Below are positions 49,301 to 64,000 of a stretch of DNA of 64,000 nt, one piece after another. The stretch spans positions 1,054,001 to 1,118,000 of the forward strand of contig JBANDB010000015.1 of NCBI GenBank assembly GCA_037576215.1. The letters are read 5' to 3'. This DNA comes from Armillaria gallica (Eukaryota; Basidiomycota; Agaricomycetes; Agaricales; Physalacriaceae). How positions within the stretch are numbered: the stretch's first letter is position 1; the number at the start of each line of letters is the position of its first letter. The notes beneath the pieces are model-generated. The model was not told the DNA's origin, searched no databases, and worked only from the letters and a program-made list of their open reading frames with translations. Made by a program: the position numbers and the translations under genes.

Positions 49301-51224
49301 ATCCTCCACCTTCTGATCTGGTCCATCTGTACACTTCAGAGCCTCTACAATTTCTGGCCACTGTGGGTTTGCTGTCATTGTAAGAAAGATATCTGGCTTC
49401 TGTAAGGCTCTACAGATTGCCATAGAGTCTTGGTACAGCTGGTACATTACACGTGGACTTCCAGAGTGTGATGATGGTAAGACAATACGCTGGCCAGAGT
49501 TTTCCAATCCATCTGCATTGGTTGTTGCATCAACCAATCCTTTATACACATCTGCATGGATAGTTTTCTGATTGTGTCAAATCCAGTTGAGATTACTTTG
49601 TTTAATTGAAGCCCATGCATCCACAATATATTGTTGGTACAGCCGTCCTCCTCTATACAATGGTGCATTTGGTTCAAATATTGGACAATCCTGTAGGCGA
49701 TAAGCATAATACATATGCTGAGTAATCTTTTTCTGTTCTCTACGTTCACTTGTTTCAGTTTCTTCCAGGAGCATATGTATATTCCAACCTAATTCTCCAT
49801 ATGGAAAAAGAAGAACATAATGAAGAGGTTGATAACTTGGATGAAGTTGGCTAATGCGCTTGAGAGAATGATCATGCATACATAAAACAATATCTCGATC
49901 ATTTTGAACAGGCTCAGATCCATCTCCAGGAATAATAGCAGCCAACTCATCTACTGTTGGAAGATTATATCATCGCCCATCAGTTCCATCACCCACATGC
50001 AATCGCACTTCAATATTTGAATACTCTTCATGGGGTTTGTCTTTCATAATGAGATATGCATGTCAATATAAAGCAACATATGGATTTACATCCTGTATTA
50101 AATCCTGTAATTGGGACATGATTTGTGGATTTAGATTAGGATTGTGATGATTGCACATACTCAATGCCTCTGCTGGATCATGTATATACAGCTGTGCATA
50201 AGGCAATTTCCCTTTTTCCTGAGGCAGCAGGGATCCCATCTGGTGATGAAGCTCTCCAGATACACGGAAGCAGTATGGTCCTGAAGAACTGGTCATTGCC
50301 TGATCAACATTTACAGCTAAAGATGTAAATGCCAATGCTGCATTATACTGTCTGATATCTTGTAAGAAGGCTTTTGACAATGGATTGTTGCCACAAAGAA
50401 GATTTTGAAGAATGGCAGGAGCAGGAAGGAGGTGAGGTAATTTAACCTGCCCTTGTAGACAGCACATTCCAAATTGCGGTGTAACTCTTGACTTACTCTT
50501 AAGTCACTCGTCATACCAATGTAATGCCCCACAATGTTTACAAACATACTTTCTACTTCCAATATTATGCTGAGAGTGCATCTCAGCATATGGACGTCTT
50601 GCCAGAGGAAGTTGTACAGGAATAGCATGTGGTGGTTGATGCTGATGTGGTAGTGGTAATGGTGGCTGTAGAGGTGGTGAAGGTAATGGTGGTGACTCTC
50701 TTATAGGTGATGGTAATTGCTGGTGGTGCTCAGCAGAAGTTGTTTGGTCAATATTTTGTGGTGGCTCAGTGCGTGGAGGATGAATTTCAATAGCTCTCCC
50801 TCGCCCATGTCCTCGACCGCCCCCACATCCATGGCCTTGTGGAACAGAAGTATTATCAAATGCAGATGTCTGTCCTTCAGGAGCACCACCATATAACTGT
50901 CTATGATGTCGACCTCTGGTGGAAAAAACAGGAAGAGCTGGTACTACAGGCATGGGATGTTCATGTGGACGATCCAACTGAGATGAGATATGAGTCTCAG
51001 GTGGTATATTAAAATGTGGAAGTTCAATATTAGGATCAGGACCTGGATGTGGTGATTGATCACAATGGATAGAGGGGGAGGTCATCTGAAGACGTTGAAG
51101 ATGATCCTGCTCCCATTCTGCATGACAATTCTGCTCTGGTGTAACTGGAGCTGAAAAATCAAAATGATCATTCTCTCTGGTAGGAGTAGATGGAGACCTA
51201 TTAACAGAATGCTGTGAGTATTGA
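46373..51224 (-). pseudogene. Helitron Rep-helicase (RepHel)
   Basis: One minus-strand frame of about 1,600 codons encodes, in order: a Pro/His-rich start, a CKHCGALHW zinc motif (about 50520-50555), the Helitron-like N domain (GPYCFRVSGELHH; RDIVLCMHDHSLKRISQLHP), the Rep HUH nuclease (GLPHMHLLIFL, His-Met-His at 49160-49168; YIHKYIYKG with the two Tyr near 48740-48765), and a Pif1-type helicase (SAGGGGKT Walker A near 47710, LIIWDEVPM, FPVRLAFAMTINKSQGQS, GQLYVALSRCTS). A 56-nt intron lies at 47326-47381. The frame is broken by stops at 50504, 50063, 49970, 49577, 48887, 48419, 48326, 47291, 46454 and 46445 (eight TGA, two TAA) and by a one-base shift near 47700 just after Walker A. All catalytic motifs remain readable, so inactivation is recent. 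Confidence 0.85.
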
Positions 51225-51619
51225 TCTTAGAAAAATAAGAGTGGTACACACATCACAGGGTATGGAGAGGTGGAAATAGTAGCAACACTGTGTAAGGAAG
51301 AGGCAAAAACACCTGAAAGAAAATCAGAAATGAAGAGCTTCAATCAAATATTGATAGACAGTACTGTGAGAGATCCCAAAAGTCCTTATTATATGTAAAT
51401 GGGCTGTAATGCTTGCCTGAGATGGTACACTGTGAGGGGAGGATGGAACAGAGCAGAGGGTAAGAAGGAAAGGGGCCAGGCTTGAACCGCACCACAGCAG
51501 CATGGCAAAGTTGAAACTCAGCCGGAATAAGCCATGGTCTGGCAATGGCTGGAAAATTCAAAGTCAGCTTATTTGTCATCATCCACCTCTCTTAATATAT
51601 AGAATATAGATAGCCACTC
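51225..51619. other. Leader side of the Helitron ORF
   Basis: No coding feature; short frames only. A splice-acceptor-like TTTTTCTAAG precedes the open frame near 51225, so an upstream non-coding exon is possible. Confidence 0.4.
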
Positions 51620-52812: not shown

Positions 52813-54584
52813 GGTATTCCGGCTTGACGGTCCGGTACCCCCTTGATTATATTAGCTTCAGTTATTTATCTATTTCTTTCTGAGTGCATTTTATCATATA
52901 AATTTTATTTGCATCGGTGGTAAAGTGTTTTTGAGGTCGTAGAATTTGATCATGGCATCCGATCATAAATCAGGAATGATCTTGAGTAATGGTAAGCAAC
53001 CGAAGCCTTTTCTCCATTTTCTTGATCTTTTCCAATTTATTGCAACGAGCTACACATGAGCCAAATTCAAGATGTTGGTGGTGATACGCCGTCTACGCGT
53101 TCACACCTAGATTTTGCGATTTTATACAAATACTATTGCATATCTACCTTACACTAGTGAAACAAAGAGGACTATAGCTGAGGCTTTGAGCTGATAGTTA
53201 GACTAGTGTGTAGCTAGAAGAGCCAGGACTTAGATGCGATACCACTAGTGGGTCAAATCTACCAGCCGGACATACTAGTGACTTGAAAGCTAACAGGACT
53301 ACATAAATGTGGTCACTAGTGGACGAGTAATGCGACTAGCACACCAAACAAGAAGCAGGGGACACAAATCTTGTGAAGTTCAGTCACTAGCGGACCGATC
53401 TGGGCACAAACGCCTAAGTCAGGTTAACTAGTCATGCGGCAATCTTGAAGCAGGACTTAGAAATGAATTTAGCAACGGATTAACCTTGCGGCAGATCCGA
53501 CTAGTGTGATACAGATCTATTACGATCGGCACTAGTATAGCCGGGTTGCACCTTTGATCATGATCGACAGCTGCTACAGGCACATTCGCTGGCCTAGCCG
53601 TTTACCCTTGTCACTAGTGGAGCATTGTTGCACCAAGACTATGGAATACAACCATTAGCGGAGCTCCTAGGCTCACTAGTCAGCGAGCGACCATTTCTAG
53701 ACTGACTATTGCATGATTATTCACCATTACTCGTGACTAGCCAAGAAATCCTTACCAATAATACCCCTCTAGTCAGTTATTTATATCTCGATTGTACCTT
53801 GATTGTTAGTATATAAGTAGTAGAATAGGCTCATGTGCGGCTCCAGGCAAGCCATCCCCGCAATTGTGACCTACTAGTCAGTACCTAGTGCCCCAATTAA
53901 AGGCTTTTGTGCTTAACCTCGACGAAGCGGCTACTAGTCACTAAGTTACCCATAGAATTGAGTGAATTGAAGTGTCTTAGAGCAATCTTTCATGTCCTGT
54001 AAAGGCTAAGAGTGTTTCAAAGTTAGTTCAAGCAAGTTCTTGAAGTTTATAGTATTATTCTTAGGCCAAGAGCGCCATTAGTCAGCCCAGAGTGCAACTA
54101 GTCAAGTGTTTATCACTTGTAGGAAGCAGTATAGGGCCAAGAGAGCCACTAGTTTGAAGCAGTCCCAGTCAGAGCGAGTGCAGTAGCTCAAGTCAAGTCA
54201 CTATTCACCCAGTCGTATCTTACCAACCCCACTAGTGTGAGTCATATGCTTGTATAGCTCACTAGTAACGAATAAAACGTCTTTAAACAACTTTCCTTGA
54301 TTATTGAAGTCTGCAGAGTGCTTCTATCGTACTTGAAATGCCCGAATTCAATACATTGGTGATAAGTGTAGAGTTAGTGTTAGGTTTAGTGTTGTTGGTG
54401 TTCATTGCCATTCACTAGTCCTTTTGCCACTCGCCGTTACCGAGCACATCATCTGGAGCCCACCACGAGGGAGTTTCAGACTTGATAATCTCGTTGAATT
54501 AAGACTTTTATTTGACACTAGTCTTGTTAAATAAACTACTATTCAACCTAGCAGCTTGTACGCAATCTGTCTAACCAAGCCTCA

Positions 54585-56477
54585 GTGAAAGCAAAGGGCA
54601 AAGCTAGAGTCACAGAGCCCACACAAGCATCGTCTTCGAGGCCAGCACCTAATAGTGCTGCCACAAGACCAACCGGAAGATCAACAGCCAATTCAAGAGC
54701 TGCTGGTGTTGGAGCCCCATCTAACTACGACTTATTAAAGAATAAACGAAGTGCAACTGCACCGCCCAATAGCCCACAAGCTAAGACAGAGCAGCGAATC
54801 AACGCGAATCTTAACGTCCAACAGACTAGACCCCTTGCACCATGCCCACAGCCCAGAACTTCCCCCACTAGTGGATCAACCAATCCGCTATTCCCTGGAC
54901 AATCGAACTCCCAGTCCATTCAAACCGCTAGTAGACTGATCATGTCCGCTAGCACCCAAAAGATGCCTAGACCTACGTCTAGGGATGCGCCCAAGTTTGA
55001 TAGCAAAGAGCCTGAGAACTTGCATCATTTCCTTGGGCAGATGGAGGATTTATTCTCTGACTATAGCATCACCGATGACGACGAGAAGAAGAAGAAGCTA
55101 GTGAGGTACATGGATGCGCATACCGAAGAAGAATGGCAAGCGTTAGAGGAGTATGATGGTGGTACCTTCGCCGAGTTCAAGGACGCGATCTTGAAGAACT
55201 ATCCAGAGGCGGCAGATGCAGAGACAGGCACTTGGGAGAGGCTCACGTGTATTTCGTGTAAGTTCTCTAACCTTGGGGCTGACAAGCGCGAGTCGTACCT
55301 GAAATTCAAGCACAGGTTCTTGACGGAAGCCAAGAAACTACAGAAGCCTCCAGTGCTAGTCACAAATCATAAACTAGTGGAAAAATTCACCAAGTCATTG
55401 TCGCCCGCATTTAGAGAAAACATCGTGTCACGATTGAGTATCAAGCGTGGATTCAAAAACGCGACTAGTGCGCCCGCCGCTGCTCCTGCCACCGCTGCTG
55501 CTGCAGCTGGTGGTGCTGCTGCGGGTGCTGCTGCTGCTGTACCTGTAGTCGCGAAACCCATCAAGAGACGTGAAGACATGCACACTCTCGATGAGGTTGT
55601 TGCTGAAGCAGATGATATCGCTCTCAACAGCTCTACTAGTTACCTTCTGTCGGCAACTAGTGGAAGTGTATCATCGACCGGAGCCACTAGTGGTTCTGGA
55701 ATCAAGGCAGAATTTGAAGACATGAAGCAGCAGGTAGCTGCTTTACTAGATCGCATTGACATAAGTGAGAAACAGGTGAAGGAGCGCCAAGAACAAATAT
55801 TGAAAGCCTTTCAACAAGGCAGAAATAATAGCTCCTCGTCTAGGCAATTGCGACCTCAGAATGAACACTCAGGAGCAGGACCAAACAACAACTGCTGGTA
55901 CGACTGGAAACCTGGGCACTACGTAAGAGATTGCCAGAATGTACAGAAGCATGTAGCAGAAGGGTTGTTGAAGCTCGTCGACAGGAAGTTCATGATGATG
56001 GATGGGACACCTATCCCACGCGAACCAGCTCATCTCTGCCCAATGGATCGCATGCTTGCATCGTTGAATAAGAAGCAGGAGCAGATGTTCTGGGAAGACA
56101 TTAGTGGGCCCGCTGGTATATTCAATATCAACATACCTGATAATGCTTCCCTGTATGTGAACAAACCTCGAGACGCTAGAGACGAAGTAATTGACAAACT
56201 TCGCCAAGATCTGCAATATTGGCAGACTAGTACTCATGTTCCAACATCTGTTCAGTCGACTATTCAGCCCCAGTTGTTACAAGCACCTGTACCATCTACT
56301 AGTAGTCAGCCAATGAATCAATCCTTTGACCCTAATGTGTTCTTGAACCAAATGAGGTCACTATTCACTCAGGCCGGTAGTCAGAATGCGACTAGTGGCC
56401 AGAACTTTGAAGGTCAGTATGTTGCCACACGCACTAGCGGTGGTGATTCTTCCCAACAGGGTTTCGAAAGGGTCTGA
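54585..56477 (+). CDS. gag: Ty3-type gag, with degenerate zinc knuckle
   Basis: Open frame of about 630 codons with no ATG until residue about 119. The first base follows a good branch site and acceptor (CTAAC..CCTCAG|TGAAAGC), so an upstream exon ending in A would create the start codon at the junction; the start is therefore unresolved. Residues about 130-290 (APKFDSKEPENLHHFLGQME, EEWQALEEYDGGTFAEFKDA) are the capsid-like helical region of basidiomycete Ty3 gag. The knuckle reads CWYDWKPGHYVRDC: the second Cys is Asp and the Gly is Trp, so zinc binding is doubtful. An Ala-rich block and Thr-Ser pairs encoded ACT AGT stand out. The stop TGA at 56475 overlaps the next ATG. Confidence 0.8.
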   Translation: MKAKGKARVTEPTQASSSRPAPNSAATRPTGRSTANSRAAGVGAPSNYDLLKNKRSATAPPNSPQAKTEQRINANLNVQQTRPLAPCPQPRTSPTSGSTNPLFPGQSNSQSIQTASRLIMSASTQKMPRPTSRDAPKFDSKEPENLHHFLGQMEDLFSDYSITDDDEKKKKLVRYMDAHTEEEWQALEEYDGGTFAEFKDAILKNYPEAADAETGTWERLTCISCKFSNLGADKRESYLKFKHRFLTEAKKLQKPPVLVTNHKLVEKFTKSLSPAFRENIVSRLSIKRGFKNATSAPAAAPATAAAAAGGAAAGAAAAVPVVAKPIKRREDMHTLDEVVAEADDIALNSSTSYLLSATSGSVSSTGATSGSGIKAEFEDMKQQVAALLDRIDISEKQVKERQEQILKAFQQGRNNSSSSRQLRPQNEHSGAGPNNNCWYDWKPGHYVRDCQNVQKHVAEGLLKLVDRKFMMMDGTPIPREPAHLCPMDRMLASLNKKQEQMFWEDISGPAGIFNINIPDNASLYVNKPRDARDEVIDKLRQDLQYWQTSTHVPTSVQSTIQPQLLQAPVPSTSSQPMNQSFDPNVFLNQMRSLFTQAGSQNATSGQNFEGQYVATRTSGGDSSQQGFERV

Positions 56478-56479
56478 TG
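56475..56479 (+). promoter_or_regulatory. TGATG stop-start overlap between gag and the linker ORF
   Basis: The gag stop TGA (56475-56477) shares its A with the ATG (56477-56479) of the next frame. Such overlaps allow terminating ribosomes to restart. There is a second one at 57786-57790. Confidence 0.6.
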
Positions 56480-57154
56480 AAGGCTACAGGGAAGAATACG
56501 TCGATCCCTATGACTATTCCCCATAAACAGCTGGAGGACCATTTTAAAAACCGACCAAAGGGAACTGAAACGAAGAAATATGTAAAGAAAGTGATTAAAC
56601 CAGTGTCTGACGAATCTGATGAATCTGAGAACGAAGTACCAGTACCGCAAGTACCCACTAGTAAGAAGGTTGTGGTGGAAATTCCCACTAGTCGACCTGC
56701 TAGTAAGAAACCAGTTACTGTAGAAGATGCTAGTGATGATGAGGATGAGGCTCCACGTCAAGAACTACCATTTAGGAAAGTTCCGAGTGTAAGTTTCGTG
56801 CCTCTCCCCTCAGATAGCGCAAACAAAAAGAAAACTAAAGTGAGATTCGATGAATCCAAAGCACCAGTGTATAAACATATGGCGCCTATCCATAAGGAAG
56901 GTAGAGTGCAGGACATCACATCTAAAGTATTGAAAACGCCTATTGTCTTAAATGCAGAAGAGCTCATGGATTTGTCGGAGCCATTAAGAAAAGAGATTGC
57001 TAAGTTGATGGCCAAGAAGCGAATTTCGACGCAACCAGTGACAGGACAGATGTATAGTACGAGGGAGACTCAACCCGAGTCCGATCTGTTACCATTTAGC
57101 GAGACTAGTAATGAAGAAGACGCGACTAGTGAGGACTTGTCCTTGGAAGTCTGA
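56477..57154 (+). CDS. Linker ORF between gag and protease (DUF4100-like region)
   Basis: 225 codons in the -1 frame relative to gag, starting at the ATG that overlaps the gag stop. The first half is rich in Lys, Glu, Ser and Pro (KKYVKKVIKP, DESDESENEVP) and low in complexity. The second half (KAPVYKHMAPIHKEGRVQDI, LKTPIVLNAEELMDLSEPLR) matches the conserved segment before the protease in many Agaricomycete Ty3 elements. No catalytic motif. ACTAGT encodes Thr-Ser at PTSKK, PTSRP, ETSNE and ATSED. Confidence 0.65.
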   Translation: MKATGKNTSIPMTIPHKQLEDHFKNRPKGTETKKYVKKVIKPVSDESDESENEVPVPQVPTSKKVVVEIPTSRPASKKPVTVEDASDDEDEAPRQELPFRKVPSVSFVPLPSDSANKKKTKVRFDESKAPVYKHMAPIHKEGRVQDITSKVLKTPIVLNAEELMDLSEPLRKEIAKLMAKKRISTQPVTGQMYSTRETQPESDLLPFSETSNEEDATSEDLSLEV

Positions 57155-57788
57155 CACGATCGACATCCGTGACTTGCCCTCTGGAATGTTTATGGCTGCG
57201 CAGTTCAATGTTGGCTTGATACCAGCTGGCTCTCTAATTATGTCCGACCCATATCTTCAGTATCTCGACTCACTAGCACCAGGAGAAAAGCCTAAGCAGG
57301 TAATAGTCATGAAAGACTCAGCTAGTCTGCAAGCTGTGTATCCAGTTATCAATGGTGCGGGCGAAGAAGAAAGTGTAGTCGACGGAGGCTCACAGATAGT
57401 ATCGATGGCTAGTGCAATAGCAACTAAGCTAGGAGTAGCTTGGGATCCTGACATTACTATCCATATGCAGAGCGCAAATGGTCAACTAGAGAAAACCTTA
57501 GGACTAGCAAGGAATGTTCCGTTCCTTTTCAATGATATCACTGTGTACTTGCAAATACACATTATCGCTACTCCAGCATATAAAGTGTTACTCGGCCGTC
57601 TGTTTGATGTCCTCACCGAGAGTGTAATTAGGAATCATGCAGATGGAGGCCAAATAATTACTATCACTGATCCGAACACTGGTCAAAGGTGCACTATTCC
57701 AACCTTCTTGAGGGGTGCACCTCCTCGGGTTGCGAAGGCAGTTCCTAAGACTACTGCAGAGGGTTTTCATTTGAACTCAATGAATTGA
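57111..57788 (+). CDS. Retroelement aspartic protease ORF
   Basis: 225 codons in the gag frame, starting at the ATG at 57111 and overlapping the linker ORF by 44 nt. VVDGGSQIVSM (GAC at 57381) is the active-site motif of fungal Ty3 retropepsins, in which Asp is followed by x-Gly-Ser/Cys-Gln; one Asp per chain means it acts as a dimer. A second retropepsin hallmark is AYKVLLGRLFDVLT, the LLGRPF-type flap end with Leu for Pro. It would cut the Gag and Pol products. Its stop TGA (57786-57788) overlaps the ATG of the RT frame. No disruption seen. Confidence 0.75.
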   Translation: MKKTRLVRTCPWKSDTIDIRDLPSGMFMAAQFNVGLIPAGSLIMSDPYLQYLDSLAPGEKPKQVIVMKDSASLQAVYPVINGAGEEESVVDGGSQIVSMASAIATKLGVAWDPDITIHMQSANGQLEKTLGLARNVPFLFNDITVYLQIHIIATPAYKVLLGRLFDVLTESVIRNHADGGQIITITDPNTGQRCTIPTFLRGAPPRVAKAVPKTTAEGFHLNSMN

Positions 57789-57790
57789 TG
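57786..57790 (+). promoter_or_regulatory. TGATG stop-start overlap between protease and RT ORFs
   Basis: The stop TGA at 57786-57788 shares its A with ATG 57788-57790. Same arrangement and same frame step as at 56475-56479. Confidence 0.6.
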
Positions 57791-60700
57791 AACGATCAAG
57801 GAGAGTTAGCCCTGCAAATCGTGCAGACTAGTGATGGTAGCTTTGAAATTGAAGGCTATATGAAGCCAACAGAAGGCGCTAGTTTCTCAGAGAAAGAACT
57901 ACGAGACAGCTTTCTCATGGCTTCAATGAATAGCGAAGAAAACCTTTTGCAAGATAAGCAAGCCAAGGGACTATTAAACTCTTACTTTCAAGGTAAGGTA
58001 GTTCCAGAAGGCTATAAAATGCAATATCATGTGTGCGAGCACACTAGTGATGGCTCTCCATTACTAGACGATACTGAAATCCCAATATATAATGTACTAG
58101 TTGATAACCTGCATGCAAAATCGAAGACCAGTCAGCCTACCAAGAAAAAGACGGCACTAGTCCCCGGTTTTGAACACCTTGGTGCATGCATGAAGAGCCC
58201 CGACTTTAAACCAGTCGCAGTGCTCGCTAGTAAGAAATATAAACCTGTAGCATTGAAGGTAAAGCCACTATTAGGCGATCTGCCGGACAAGTTCCGAATA
58301 GTGAGAGACATTAAAGGTGATCCCCTCAAAGACATCCCACTATTGAGCACTAGTCCGCCAGAATACGTTCCTACAGTGCGCTACACCCCTGAAAGAAAAG
58401 CTAAGATTGACGAAAACCATCCAGAAGGATTCCTATGGCCAGAAGAGCGCAAGCTAATGCACCATTTCATGACTATCCAAGAGCAAGCCTTTGCTTGGGA
58501 CGACACTGAACGTGGGCATTTCCAAGAGGACTTCTTCCTGCCAATAGATATTCCTATAGTACCGCACACTCCATGGGTTTTGAAGAATATTCCAATCCCA
58601 CCTGGAATCTATGAGGAAGTCTGTCGGATTATTAAATCCAAGATCAACGCTGGTGTATACGAGCCGTCTAATTCCTCTTATCAATCAAGGTGGTTCTGCA
58701 TAATTAAGAAAGACAGGAAAAGTCTTCGACTAGTACATAGTTTGGAGCCTCTGAATGCAGTGACTATTGCGCATTCTGGGATTCCACCAGCCACAGACGA
58801 ACTATCCAAGCATTTTGCAGGAAGAGCGTGTGGAGGATGTTTGGACTTGTACGTTGGATATGATGAGCGAGATATTGCTGTTGCATCCAGAGATTATACT
58901 ACATTCCAAACCCCATTCGGTTCGATGCGACTAGTGAAATTACCAATGGGTTGGACCAATTCAGTGCCAATATTCCATGAAGATGTAACGCATATCCTAC
59001 GAGAAGAAATCCCGCATGTCACTCGTCCCTATATCAATGATGTACCTGTACGAGGGCCCAAAACTCGCTATGAAACTGAGGGTGGAGGCTTTGAGACTAT
59101 TCCAGAAAACCCTGGGATTCGTCGGTTTGTATGGGAACATATGCAAAACATGAATTGAGTGGTTCAACGGATGAAATATTGTGGAGGGACCTTCTCAGGA
59201 CCTAAGACATTCTTGTGTGTTGAGGAAATGACGGTGGTTGGTCATCTATGCATGTATGAAGGAAGAAAAATTGAACCTGATAGAGTTGGAGTCATCAGTC
59301 GATGGGGTCCTTGCCAGCACCTCACAGATGTATGAGCCTTCTTAGGCACTTGTGGTGTCTGTCGAAAGTTTATAAGGGACTATTCAAAAATAGCAGAACC
59401 ACTAGTCAAGTTGACACGACTCAATGTACCCTTCGAGTGGGAGACTGAACAGCAACTAGCCATGGACAAGCTCAAGCACGCGGTCGTGACTAGTCCAGCG
59501 ATTTGACCGATTGACCTCACTAGTGAAGCGGAAGTAGGTCTATGCATCGATACTTCATATAAAGCTGTTGGGTTCTACATCTATCAAGTCAATGAGAAAG
59601 ATCCTACCAAGCAATATTATGTGCACTTCGGTTTGATCACTATGAACGAGAGAGAAGCACGGTTTTCACAGCCCAAACGCGAGTTGTATGGACTATTGCG
59701 AGCTTTAAAAGCTTGTCAGTATTGGCTTATTGGGATTCGCAACTTAGTGGTTGAGACCGACGCGCAGTACATCAAGGGTATGCTAAGCAACCCAGGAATG
59801 GGACCAAATGCCACGATCAATCGTTGGATAGAGAACATTCTGATGTTTCACTTCACCCTTCGACATGTGAAAGGTAGTACTTTCCCCGCTGATGGACTAT
59901 CGAGGCACGATGCGCAACCTGATGATGAGATCCATCCTGACTTGGAGGATTACGAGCTAGAGGACCATGGCCCTTTGAAGTTTGAAGTAGTGGAAGGCAC
60001 TAGTGAGCTGCCGAAGGAGATAGAAGAATTTAAGAATGAAATAGATAGTCGAGGTGGCTACATGTATACACTAGCCACTAGTATTGATGATTTCGCTGTA
60101 GAATTGGACGAAGCATGCTCTTGTGAACTAGAATTAAGAAATCTCTACTTAGCACAGGAGAAAACCAATGAAATCATATGCCAGTTCTTGAAAGCGACTC
60201 CACTCATTCCAGATCTCGAGTATAAGTTTGATCCTAACAAAAGAGAGGACTACCCAGAGAAACAACGGACTAGTAGTGGACTAGCACAAGATGAATGGCT
60301 ACCACATGTCAGAACTTGGTTGAGGAACCTTAGGCACTGCCCAGAAGGACTTAATGACAAACAATACTTGACTTTCAAGCAATACTGTCGTAACTTCTTC
60401 TTGGACAAGGAAGGCAGACTATATAGATGCAGCACTGAAGGAGACCATAGACTAGTAGTGGATAAAGAGCATCGAATGTATATGATGAGATTGGCACATG
60501 ACTCATTAGGACATAGAGGCTTTTACGCGACTAAGTCACTATTGGAGCAATGGTTTTGGTGGCCAGAGTTGGAACAGGACGTCAGTTGGTATGTCAAGTC
60601 TTGTCATTTATGTCAAGTCAGACAGAAGACGATGATCCATATTCCGCCCTCTGTCACCGAAACACCTCCGCTATTCCAGAAAGTACACTGCGATACTATG

Positions 60701-61845
60701 GTTATGAGCCCGGCGTCTAATAAGTGCAGATACATAGTTCATGCATGCGACTCGTTATCGTCCTGGCCTGAAGCGAGGGCCTTACAACAAGAAAATGCGA
60801 AAGCAATTGCAATTTGGTTCTTTGAGGACGTGATATGCAGGTGGGGCTGTCCCAATGAAATAGTAACTGATAACGGCGGACCTTGGGTCGCAGTTACACA
60901 GTGGCTAAGTGATAAGTATGGCATCACCGGCATAAAGATCACTCCTTACAATTCACAAGCAAATGGAAAAATTGAAAGAGGCCATTGGGACCTTCGTCAA
61001 TCGCTGGTTAAAGTGACTAGTGGCAACTCAAGGAAGTGGTTTTACTTCCTACCGCATGTATTGTGGGCTGACCACATCACCATCAAACGTGGTACCGATT
61101 GCTCGCCGTATTTCATGGCACTAGGCACACATCTGATAATACCCCTTGATGTAGTGGAAGCGACTTGGCTAGTCAACCCACCAAGTGGAGTCTTGAGCAC
61201 CGCAGACCTTATAGGCATGCGAGCGAAAGCACTAGCCAAGCACACCCAACATGTAATGGCCATGCAACAGAAAATTAATAAGAACAAACTTGATACAGTA
61301 CTGCGCTACCAACGTGAGCACAAGGCCACTATTGTGGACTACGACTTCAAACCAGGTCGACTAGTGCTTATGCGAAACACACGGGTCGAAGAAAGTCTTG
61401 ACAGTAAGATGGAGCCAAGGTACATGGGACCACTAGTCGTTATAAGAAGGACTAGAGGCGGTTCTTATGTTTTAGCAGAGTTGGATGGATCAATAGTGGG
61501 TGGCACAGTCGCTCAGTTTAGAGTAATCCCATACCATGCGAGGCATAGTATCAAGTTACCCAAGAAAATCCATGATTTAATCGATATAAGTCCCCAAACT
61601 CTGAAGGAGTTGGTGGCTGGTGACGAGTCTGTCCCAACAGAATACCACTATCGGCCCTTAGGCAAGAAATTATATGGTATAGACTGAGTTAGGCTGCAAC
61701 AGAGCGACACTAGTGGGTCTGACAGTGAAGATTCTGGTTCAGAAGCTGAGGGATACCCTCAGCCTGATGAATATGATAGCAATAGTGATGAAGACGACAA
61801 AGTCCCCATCGCTAGTCGACTCAGAAGCTCAAACACTGCGGTCTA
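57788..61845 (+). pseudogene. pol: Reverse transcriptase - RNase H - integrase polyprotein with four in-frame TGA
   Basis: One frame from ATG 57788 to TAG near 61845, broken only by TGA at 59156, 59333, 59504 and 61685. RT: YQSRWFCIIKKDRKSLRLVH, TPFGSMRLVKLPMGWTNSV and YIND at 59030-59041, where the family has YIDD. RNase H: EVGLCIDTSYKAVGFYIYQ, KRELYGLLRALKACQYWL, VVETDAQ. Integrase: HHCC zinc finger (HDSLGHRGF..CHLCQVRQ, 60500-60625), then DTM..TDNGG..KIERGHWD as the D,D-35-E triad, and a chromatin-side tail (LVLMRNTRVEESLDSKMEPR, YMGPLVVI). After the fourth TGA the frame continues as an acidic tail (TSGSDSEDSGSEAEG). The stops lie where Arg is expected, as if CGA had become TGA. Integrase is otherwise intact. 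Confidence 0.85.
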
Positions 61846-61991
61846 GAATGGTCAAACACACTTTATATTGCTAAGTAACGATGGTGTAAGCTAGGTATTG
61901 TATCTAAGCAGTTGGAAATCATGAGAAACGACAGACTAGTGATTGAAAACTTGTATATATGGCGACTAGTAATGGTTCAGAATGGCTAGTA

Positions 61992-64000
61992 CTAGCCAAG
62001 CTTGGAACTAGAGGCAACCGGAGCAGAAGAACCATCTTCCATAGGAACTGGAAGGCGATTTTTGAGCTGCTTGATGACCTGGCCATGGTGAGCAACCACA
62101 AACTCATGGTACTTGAGCAAGTACTCGATTTTGTGAGTCGTAGCGATCATGTCATTGTGAAGATCGGCCTCTCTAGAGCGCAAGATGCTCTCGGAAGGAT
62201 TGATATGATCTCCAGCACTGACTAGCGTGGCCACGGCGTCAACAGTACTCTGACTAGCCTCGTTATTGATAGCTAAGTCAGCTGCTAGAAAAAGAAAGAA
62301 GGTCAATAGTGCATCAGATAGCTCACTAGTGAGCACATACCAGCAATAGTGAAAGGGGAATCCTTGAAAGCATGGTCAGTAGAGGTACGAGGACGCTTCC
62401 TGGCTTGGATAGCAGCCTCATTGGCCTTCCCTTTGGCGATAATCGCTTCGGCAGCCTGGTATTTGTGAAAAGATGAGTTAAAGTCGGCTACTAGTGATAT
62501 AAATTCACCTGAATCGCCTCCGCATGACGCTCTTCCTTCTCCTTTTCCCTCTGAAAGAAAACTTTAGAAAAGTAAAGAAGAAACCCAACTAGTAGACTAA
62601 CCTGAGCAGCCTGAGCAGCCTTCTTGGTCTTGAGGAACTTGGGGAGGGGAATCTTGTGCCCTTCGACGATGTTGCCGGCAGTAGGGTTGCGATTGACAAT
62701 GACATTGACATCTTCGTCGATATTCATCTGTTCAAAGCGCGAAATGACAGTATCAGCCTTGCAATGAACAGTAGCTAAGGTAAACAATACTGAGTCAGTT
62801 TCCTATGGCGCAAGGGAAGAAAAGCGTACTGGGAGCAGGTTTGTCCTTCACTGAACCAGGCTGGGTCCTTGGGGCCTTTGTAGGCGGACCAATCGGTACA
62901 GTAATCGAAAGGCCGACTTCAGGCTTCTTGGGATTGGTGAACTTCTTCTTAGGCGACGATGCCTTCTGCTTTTGGTTCTTGGAAGTACCTTTAACCTAGC
63001 CGGTACAGTCACCTAAGTGGACGGCAAGCAAGAAAAACAAAAGTACTTACTAGAGGAGTAGGGCCACTAGTGGAAGAAGCCTTACCAGGCGACCAAGCCT
63101 TGGGCTTGGGAGCACCTTTACCACCAGTGTGCTGCATCAAAAGGGGTGAATTGATAAGCGAAGCATGAAAGAGAACGGCGACTGACCTTGGGGAGGACCT
63201 CCCCTTCAGACTCGTCCGTTTCCCCCTCAGCTTCATCACCGGTACGGTTCTCCTCACTGGCGGAGTCGCCCCCTTCTTCCTCATCATTGTCGCCTGAAGC
63301 GTCGGGGTTGCCTGAATCATCAACCGATGAGGCTGGACGTTTATGCCCCTGCGGCTTGGATAATGCTGAAAGGAAAGTGTTGGGGAGCAGAGTATCTTCC
63401 TCGATCTTGACATGCTGGAAAGTACAATTCAACCGAAAGAAATGAAATGAAAGAATATAGCATGCACCCCAGACTGTTTGCTCATCTTTAGCTCCCAGCC
63501 GTCGAAGCTAGGAAGTTGCAAGTTTGCCGGGAGTTCGGTGACGATGGCCTCGCAGGTGTAAAGCAGGTCGTGAGCGAAGGACACAGCAGGATGCGCTTTG
63601 TCCTCATGAGAAAGCTTCAGAATGCTGATCTAAAAAGTTGCAAAAAGGAAAATTTTAGCGAGGAACGACAGCAATAGTAAAGGATTCATGTACCAGGAAG
63701 GGAGTACTATCCTTTAACACCCGAGCAAGTTCCTTCGGCTGGCATTGACCACGCTTGTCTGGGTTGAGAAGGGGACGGAGTCGGTTGACCCCTGTAGCGA
63801 AGTCCTCGAGGTTCATCAGTAAGAAGAAGGAAATACTAGTGAAAAGTAAGGACAACTAGTCGATGGGAGGAGCGAAAGTAAGGAAGTTTTATGGAAGTCG
63901 GACTTAGGTTTGATTCAATACAGTTTTCCAAGCTGAGCTTGAAACGGCTGTACTGGCATTATGGCTAGCAGCCCCTCGATCGCAGTAGTAGCCCATACAC
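61992..64000 (-). CDS. Multi-exon gene antisense to and downstream of the retroelement, 5'-partial
   Basis: Nine minus-strand exons can be joined without breaking the frame: 61992-62284, 62341-62455, 62509-62550, 62602-62774, 62830-62995, 63051-63131, 63187-63414, 63468-63629 and 63694 onward; introns are 51-64 nt with GT..AG ends. More than 440 codons lie in the window; the start is not resolved. The N-terminal part (NLEDFATGVNRLRPLLNPD, HPAVSFAHDLLYTCEAIVT) looks globular, the middle is acidic then basic and Pro-rich (DNDEEEGGDSASEEN; SPKKKFTNPKKPEVG), and the end is helical (ADLAINNEASQSTVDAVATL, YLLKYHEFVVAHHGQVIKQL). No known domain; possibly a nuclear, nucleic-acid-associated protein. 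It carries the same ACTAGT word in exons and in at least three introns as the retroelement beside it, which suggests it belongs to the same mobile unit. Confidence 0.65.

Follow-up and report, generated by a model that had tools for sequence, protein, structure and literature searches.

A palindromic hexamer in helical register along a Ty3-type retroelement family of Armillaria, and its possible recognition on nucleosomal DNA

The window analysed here was a stretch of 64,000 bp from Armillaria gallica (GCA_037576215.1, contig JBANDB010000015.1, positions 1,054,001 to 1,118,000), lying on contig C15 of a genome of 86 Mb and 28 contigs. Its final part was rich in the palindrome ACTAGT and belonged, by its sequence organization, to a Ty3-type long terminal repeat (LTR) element of 12.6 kb (53082-65644). 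The window contained 62 copies of ACTAGT, 57 of them between 53153 and 63860 (starts 53153 to 63855) and five in bases 1-53152; a preliminary description of this DNA, which had counted about 57 by eye in 10.7 kb and about five in the first 53 kb, was therefore exact in the first case and correct in the second. A first-order Markov model predicted 3.3 copies for the zone, giving an enrichment of ~17-fold. ACTAGT was the top hexamer when the zone was ranked, and the runners-up (CTAGTG, CACTAG and GACTAG) all overlapped it. No tandem array was found within the zone and the sequences flanking the sites appeared unrelated, so that tandem duplication or a shared domain was ruled out as the source of the excess, as the preliminary description had concluded. 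The zone originally delimited was part of an element that really extended past the window end (Table 1).

The element was compared with ten other copies, 90-92% identical to it in the pol stretch and fetched with their surroundings; these are named here by contig. Together with the window they made 11 regions, of which C2:7575079-7595078 was left out of most comparisons; here, one family copy was nested in another at internal position ~5484 (loci L029/L030). Further candidate copies (C3:1506020, C12 and others) lay outside this sample, and the tests of motif, phase, base composition and retention reported below used between one and seven copies, or nine LTRs where phase within the LTR was at issue. 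Full-length copies had two antisense multi-exon genes, A and B, between pol and the 3' LTR, which were modelled on copy C6; the deletion in the window copy had cost gene B its 5' part and gene A the exon that encodes a cysteine cluster.

Table 1. Features of the window copy, in window coordinates
Feature	Position	Strand	Remarks
5' LTR	53082..54451	+	1370 bp; 17 ACTAGT in single phase, period 10.28 bp, R 0.83
ACTAGT array in window	53153..63860		57 sites; array goes on to 65607 beyond the window
gag-like open reading frame (ORF)	54552..56477	+	641 aa between stops; named by position; no Pfam family above cut-off
ORF between gag and protease	56447..57154	+	235 aa; no Pfam family above cut-off
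Aspartic protease region	57042..57788	+	gag-asp_proteas, E 8.5e-5, below curated cut-off
Upstream pol ORF	57749..59158	+	no Pfam match; stops before the ORF at 59507 in the window copy
RNase H - H2C2 zinc finger - integrase ORF	59507..61687	+	90% to Armillaria ostoyae protein
Antisense gene B, 3' exons	61992..62802	-	ORFs 61992-62375 and 62491-62802; 5' part missing in the window copy
Deletion junction	62803		~2.5 kb gone relative to full-length copies
Antisense gene A, remaining exon	63118..63507	-	ORF; acidic stretch; gene truncated in the window copy
3' LTR	64275-65644		outside window; 1370 bp; LTR pair 98.2% identical

Four full-length copies of ~15 kb contained 84-88 ACTAGT each, and copy C15, of equal length, contained 68. 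In full-length copies the density of sites began and ended at the LTR boundaries (10 of the 11 regions were counted, with limits that were hand-set or truncated for C3:5363669 and C4:3836982, and a hand-set start for C1). Thus, the counts inside and outside the element were 88 and 3 for C6, 87 and 0 for C9, 88 and 4 for C5, and 84 and 1 for C4. The window copy had 75 sites inside and 17 outside in its region, all 17 within a neighbouring LTR of 79% identity. This second LTR (L009, equal to 65703-67060) lay ~60 bp past the 3' LTR, and a diverged duplication was present just downstream (L009/L010, equal to 67572-69107 and 69768-71387; 72-81% identity in longer pieces). Within copy C6, the region upstream of gene B had 14.9 sites per kb and the LTR 11.7, compared with 3.9 for gag-pol and 1.4 for gene A; sites were denser in non-coding parts, although 28 of 88 lay in gag-pol. 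ACTAGT was therefore densest around the expected starts of transcription, and at the same time present across the whole element. The LTR was found at 164 places with two mismatches or fewer, and the first 100 listed (96 of them exact) were spread over at least 17 of the 28 contigs; a restriction of the element to centromeres was not supported.

The LTRs began and ended with TGATAC...ACATCA (TG...CA), and the window copy was flanked on both sides by a 4-bp target duplication, GTGG. An exact 4-bp repeat was also found in four of six other copies (CCGG, GCGG, ACGC and CCGG), while C5 (GCGC/GCGT) and C15 differed; the duplications of all five exact-repeat copies were G/C-rich. The order of pol was protease (below cut-off), RNase H, H2C2 and integrase core (below cut-off), and the reverse transcriptase stretch of the window copy had no Pfam match. 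The best relative of pol was the Armillaria ostoyae protein (90%), and most others among the matches listed were metagenome proteins. No relatives were found in viral contigs.

The preliminary description had called the sites irregularly spaced. This did not hold, since neighbour gaps of up to 130 bp were quantised at multiples of ~10.25 bp (20/21, 30/31, 41/42, 51, 60-62, 72/73, 82/83 and 91-93), with a few gaps off phase (e.g., 49, 53, 78, 88 and 98). The 30 such gaps in the window gave a phase score of R = 0.69 (p ~7e-7 if gaps are independent), and none of 2000 position-jitter nulls matched the observed statistic, on a period grid coarser for the nulls than for the data. In C6, 39 gaps gave R = 0.76 (p ~2e-10 if independent), and the statistic for all pairs was matched by none of 20000 gap-jitter nulls. 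The estimated period was 10.20-10.23 bp; bootstrap 95% limits over three copies were 10.04-10.30, which excluded 10.5. Of nine LTRs, eight had 11-17 sites over more than 1 kb in one phase (R 0.83-0.91, period 10.24-10.28). Among 300 nulls for each LTR, the observed single-phase value was reached by none in six cases, by one in another and by three in another. At a period of 10.5 bp, R was 0.08-0.37 in all nine. These nine results are not independent because the LTRs are homologous. Pairs of ACTAGT numbered 1210, against 470 for the control word TGATCA; among the places listed, ACTAGT spacings were only 20, 21, 30, 31, 41 and 42 (many from homologous LTRs), while those of TGATCA were scattered.

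When motif words were masked, the surrounding sequence followed the same register. Relative to the centres of ACTAGT, TA and AA/TT steps were in phase, whereas GC, CG and CC/GG ran in antiphase (three copies, C6, the window copy and C13; |z| 4.6-6.7). The phase was kept under strict masking of all one-mismatch words plus ACTA, TAGT and CTAG (|z| 3.4-7.1, same three copies), and the CpG-poor copy C1 then gave values of 4.2-5.8 for every step except CG. With four copies pooled, G/C content climbed gradually over half a turn, from 0.39 at the phase centre to 0.50, without the G/C peak 1-2 bp from the centre that a motif would require. A/T-rich words of many kinds were in phase, and TGCA, AGCT and GCGA were in antiphase. 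Degenerate sites as the sole cause of this wave were not favoured, since it outlasted strict masking. The wave was seen around sites in the LTR, gag-pol and the antisense part, fading beyond ~230 bp, whereas eight anchor words taken from host DNA in the window showed no such signal (z -1.3 to 0.3). Masked self-periodicity was 3.9-6.6 in four copies compared with 1.2-2.4 in four host stretches; for C13 the scan peaked at 11.4, though the cosine at 10.25 was 5.6. It was at host level in two sister-family loci (L031, 2.5; L033, 2.2). In L034, an 80% relative, A/T was in phase around its 20 ACTAGT sites (z = 4.5). An A/T-G/C antiphase with a period of ~10.2 bp is, so far as base sequence can indicate, like the rotational code of nucleosomes.

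The signature was not confined to a single word, as had first been thought; ACTAGT was indeed the top hexamer, but it headed a small degenerate motif. Two of the nine one-mismatch classes were enriched, and both were in phase with ACTAGT (cosine 0.46-0.70, four copies). ACTATT/AATAGT occurred 24 times against 6.7 expected in C6 and 26 against 6.4 in the window copy; for ACTAGC/GCTAGT the values were 28 against 7.8, and 25 against 6.6. Among hexamers not overlapping ACTAGT, these two ranked first and second in C6 and the window copy, and first and third in C13. Origin of the variants by mutational decay was ruled out because ACTAAT/ATTAGT, the C-to-T product, was depleted (2 against 6.6 in C6; 2 against 6.3 in the window copy). 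As a pattern of letters, the enriched variants are like the degenerate recognition site of a protein. Of ten CTAG contexts in C6, ACTAGT (72 against 3.8), ACTAGC (28 against 7.8) and, weakly, GCTAGC (9 against 4.1) were in excess; the other seven were near or below expectation (e.g., TCTAGA, 2 against 5.2), and none of the TTAA contexts in C6 was clearly enriched. GAAAAC/GTTTTC was also enriched (25 against 8.3 in C6; 23 against 8.0 in C13) and partly in phase (cosine 0.49 and 0.48).

Selection on the word, which the preliminary description had suggested, was supported by its retention, by the codons and amino acids of pol and by the helical phasing itself. Retention was compared with that of CpG-free hexamers of matched composition in nine comparisons. 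ACTAGT was retained in excess from the window to C6 (48/59 against 0.60), from C6 to the window (48/57 against 0.65), from C13 to the window (43/51 against 0.60) and from C6 to C1 (57/67 against 0.62). The 79% LTR retained 12 of 17 sites against 0.36 (to the window) and 0.37 (to C6). The excess was weaker from C13 to C6 (46/52 against 0.77) and from C6 to C13 (46/51 against 0.82). Sites present in one lineage only, whether gained or lost, were in phase with shared sites (cosine 0.50-0.83, 10-19 pairs in each of seven comparisons). The gag-pol frames of C6 contained 30 Thr-Ser pairs where 10.2 were expected; 21 of them were written as ACTAGT, compared with 5.1 predicted from codon usage. Leu-Val occurred 17 times against 11.7, with eight in ACTAGT. 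Of eight ACTAGT sites in the window's RNase H - integrase ORF, five encoded Thr-Ser. Among 69 homologs at 50-56% identity (of 120 listed and 674 found), Thr-Ser was present in only 5 of 341 aligned cells at those sites, compared with 31% identity for other dipeptides. A Leu-Val site stood in place of Met-Ile, while at two others Leu-Val was also the majority state in homologs (63/69 and 64/69). Of two Armillaria ostoyae proteins, P0042 kept four of five Thr-Ser (one unaligned) and P0112 kept three (one was gap-Asn and one unaligned). Given the rarity of Thr-Ser in homologs at these sites, pol residues appear to have been fitted to the word, that is, changed to make room for ACTAGT.

Sister elements without the word, which the preliminary description had envisaged as evidence against selection, were found in part. 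Three sister-family loci at 65-72% identity had 3-4 ACTAGT per 10 kb, while relatives at 79-80% carried it (17 in the 79% LTR, 20 in L034). As the word was scarce only in the more distant loci, it is family-specific, and selection is not refuted. With regard to the idea that each family has its own palindrome, one sister locus was suggestive (L033+L035, on C7), where ATCTAG ranked first (24 against 7.5) and TCTAGA fourth (13 against 4.2), an enrichment of about threefold; neither was self-phased. ATCTAG ranked ninth in L032, and both words were outside the top 14 of L031. A/T phase around TCTAGA in three homologous loci gave z = 2.0, 1.8 and 2.4. From these counts, it is possible that L033+L035 has a word of its own. 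Locus L032 (C13:370146-380145) was strongly depleted in CpG-containing 4-mers (CCGG 1, CGCG 1), as after methylation decay; L033, of the same family, was not (CCGG 14, CGCG 9).

Antisense genes A and B were considered as possible sources of a protein that reads ACTAGT. Gene A encodes 550 aa and had 41 homologs, all named Armillaria or Desarmillaria and including groups at 34-45% identity; gene B encodes 409 aa and had 56 homologs, all those listed being Armillaria or Desarmillaria. The gene A homologs shared C-x2-C-x8-C-x8-C-x2-C-x7-C, with each cysteine present in at least 90% of 30 homologs. The fungal Zn2Cys6 spacing is C-x2-C-x6-C-x5-12-C-x2-C-x6-8-C, so the first loop of gene A is two residues longer. 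The Pfam Zn cluster family had no match in the exons of gene A or in 30 homologs. Structure prediction gave a long helix after the cluster and a well-modelled N-terminal helical domain. In 8 of 30 homologs, gene A's acidic stretch weakly matched YL1, a histone-binding subunit; the match was below the curated cut-off where shown and is probably compositional. Both genes, gene A with its Zn2Cys6-like cluster, are candidate readers of ACTAGT.

These results may be explained by a DNA-binding protein that recognises its sites on nucleosomes all along the element, ACTAGT being its family-specific target and ACTAGC and ACTATT weaker versions of that target; we give this explanation an even chance. 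CTAG is a core of high-affinity nucleosome DNA in which the minor groove faces inward (PMC2880596), so that on a nucleosome the palindrome would turn its major groove outward. With the element wrapped on histones, the minor groove at the central TA step of each site would point inward and the sites of one stretch would be exposed together on one side. A factor could then bind many sites simultaneously and leave the nucleosomes in place. It might be encoded by one of the two antisense genes and, through binding, might open or protect the chromatin of the element by VANC-like counter-silencing or trans-activation; both of these steps are proposed with less assurance. Sites are most closely packed in the LTRs and in the presumed promoter upstream of gene B. 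In its wider form the proposal is that a second, geometric code overlies the genes of the element: the palindrome is held on one helix face along 12-15 kb, an element-encoded protein reads it as 'self' on intact nucleosomes and keeps or opens the chromatin, and codons and amino acids of gag-pol have adapted to it. This wider form is advanced tentatively, with the balance slightly against it. Recognition on nucleosomes was favoured because it accounts for the phase, the period of ~10.25 rather than 10.5 bp, the antiphase code and the extension of sites into coding sequence better than do a restriction or modification tag, a packaging signal or cooperative binding to free DNA. Of the functions listed in the preliminary description, a binding site for an element-encoded factor fits best.

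Several observations weigh against this explanation. Gaps above 130 bp were unphased overall in C6 (32 gaps, R = 0.11), and in the window copy 26 such gaps gave R = 0.28 (p = 0.12). The 79% LTR kept ACTAGT, but its single-phase score was at chance (R = 0.59, 140/300 nulls). The antiphase of CG was weak in copy C1 (z = -2.6), masked self-periodicity was at host level in L034 (2.3), which carries ACTAGT, and was raised in the CpG-poor sister L032 (4.7), which does not. Part of the A/T-G/C oscillation could be an imprint left by mutation on DNA whose nucleosomes ACTAGT had already positioned. There was no preferential retention from C6 to C15 (55/67 against 0.86), and the retention excess elsewhere could also arise through homogenisation between copies. 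With respect to the candidate readers, the cysteine cluster of gene A was modelled with low confidence, no Pfam DNA-binding family scored above cut-off in ten antisense exons and 30 gene A homologs, and the models of genes A and B matched no solved fold in a structure search (E <= 0.001).

Several alternatives were considered. ACTAGT could serve purely to position nucleosomes, in an element built to wrap tightly on histones without any sequence-specific reader. The period of 10.25 bp, the antiphase code and the place of CTAG in high-affinity nucleosome DNA (PMC2880596) all agree with this. However, a mechanical code would employ many TA-step words, whereas other CTAG and TTAA contexts were near or below expectation, with GCTAGC as the sole other clear excess, and ACTAAT/ATTAGT was depleted; positioning alone is unlikely. 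Alternatively, a non-histone protein of the element could form an unbroken filament or superhelix that wraps or coats the DNA, repeating every ~10.26 bp; ACTAGT would provide nucleation and the A/T-G/C code would ease bending. In eight of nine LTRs a single phase holds for more than 1 kb, or upwards of 100 turns, which exceeds one nucleosome; because many nucleosome lengths are spanned, a filament is the chief rival where the LTRs are concerned, and the specificity among CTAG contexts is also in its favour. Conversely, no candidate with such a fold was found among the models of genes A and B, and the phase is lost overall across the longer gaps of C6. A filament, too, is unlikely.

Cooperative binding on naked DNA, or looping, by a transcription factor of host or element would likewise place palindromic sites on one face of free B-DNA, and it agrees with the high density in the LTR and upstream of gene B. 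The short gaps of the window, taken alone, hardly separate the periods (R = 0.64 at 10.5 bp, 0.69 at 10.25 bp). The helical repeat of naked DNA (10.5 bp) was not favoured by the periods of 10.20-10.23, or of 10.24-10.28 in the LTRs, nor by the low R at 10.5 in all nine LTRs; the masked code is not predicted, and sites also run across gag-pol. Such binding is likewise unlikely. The preliminary description had further listed a modification mark, a self-recognition or restriction tag, a packaging signal and a recombination hotspot, each of which could spread regardless of DNA geometry. A palindrome distributed along the whole element suits these functions, but the 10.25-bp spacing, the pair of phased variants and the code around the sites are predicted by none of them, and they are very improbable. 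That the excess is a counting artefact, a tandem duplication or a compositional accident is already refuted by the exact count, the hexamer ranks, the lack of a tandem array and the unrelated-looking flanks.

Among the closest known systems are VANDAL21 and other VANDAL elements of Arabidopsis, which have VANC anti-silencing proteins (PMC5735166, PMC10398659). VANDAL elements share with the Armillaria element a dense, family-specific short motif that is rare elsewhere and the encoding of extra proteins with introns, and their related families have other motifs (PMC5735166). They are, however, DNA transposons whose motif is mainly non-coding and set in same-orientation arrays, often in tandem repeats (PMC5735166); the Armillaria word is a palindrome without tandem repeats, extends into gag-pol with altered amino acids and is helically phased. 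In the main text of the VANDAL paper the words 'periodic', 'helical' and 'spacing' have no occurrences (PMC5735166). Of the VANC-type features, family-specific motif arrays were found in the Armillaria element, and tandem repeats of the motif in non-coding regions were not. The VANC domains (DUF1985 and DUF287) had no Pfam match in ten antisense exons and 30 gene A homologs, gene B homologs being outside that scan. The comparison thus bears on a possible mode of action and not on membership.

Retand, a Ty3 lineage of plants, also has a long region with antisense genes between pol and the 3' LTR; many of its antisense ORFs are predicted to bind DNA, most carry TRP28, and about half of its elements have tandem repeats in that region (PMC11963269). 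The Armillaria element, by contrast, has multi-exon antisense genes, no tandem repeats and no Pfam family above cut-off, and TRP28 had no match in the same scan (ten antisense exons and 30 gene A homologs, without gene B homologs). At maize centromeres, CRM2 and CentC resemble it insofar as repeated DNA influences nucleosome position; the CentC satellite has a ~10-bp AA/TT periodicity, while the CRM2 retrotransposon has phased nucleosomes with undetectable AA/TT periodicity (PMC3053214). Unlike centromeric CRM2, the Armillaria LTRs are dispersed. High-affinity nucleosome sequences, synthetic and natural, with CTAG or TTAA cores, share TA steps with the minor groove inward and a ~10.2-bp periodicity (PMC2880596); they differ from the Armillaria element, where one hexamer context dominates across 12-15 kb of mobile DNA. 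In the literature searched (subscription papers and preprints lay outside the search), neither a retroelement with a helically phased word nor this Armillaria family was found to have been described.

Upstream of the element, an ORF on the minus strand (50504-51226) ended in ...CKHCGALHWYDE, a motif known from Helitron-type proteins.

If recognition on nucleosomes is true, the element would carry a natural chromatin address along its whole length, in which the choice of binding site, the wrapping of DNA and the coding of protein are selected together. The way in which a factor can recognise its sites on nucleosomes could be tested directly, and the LTR would be a ready natural substrate for studies of nucleosome binding. 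The finding suggests that families of fungal transposons, and not those of plants alone, may mark themselves with addresses readable in chromatin, and that they may do so by point mutation rather than by tandem duplication.

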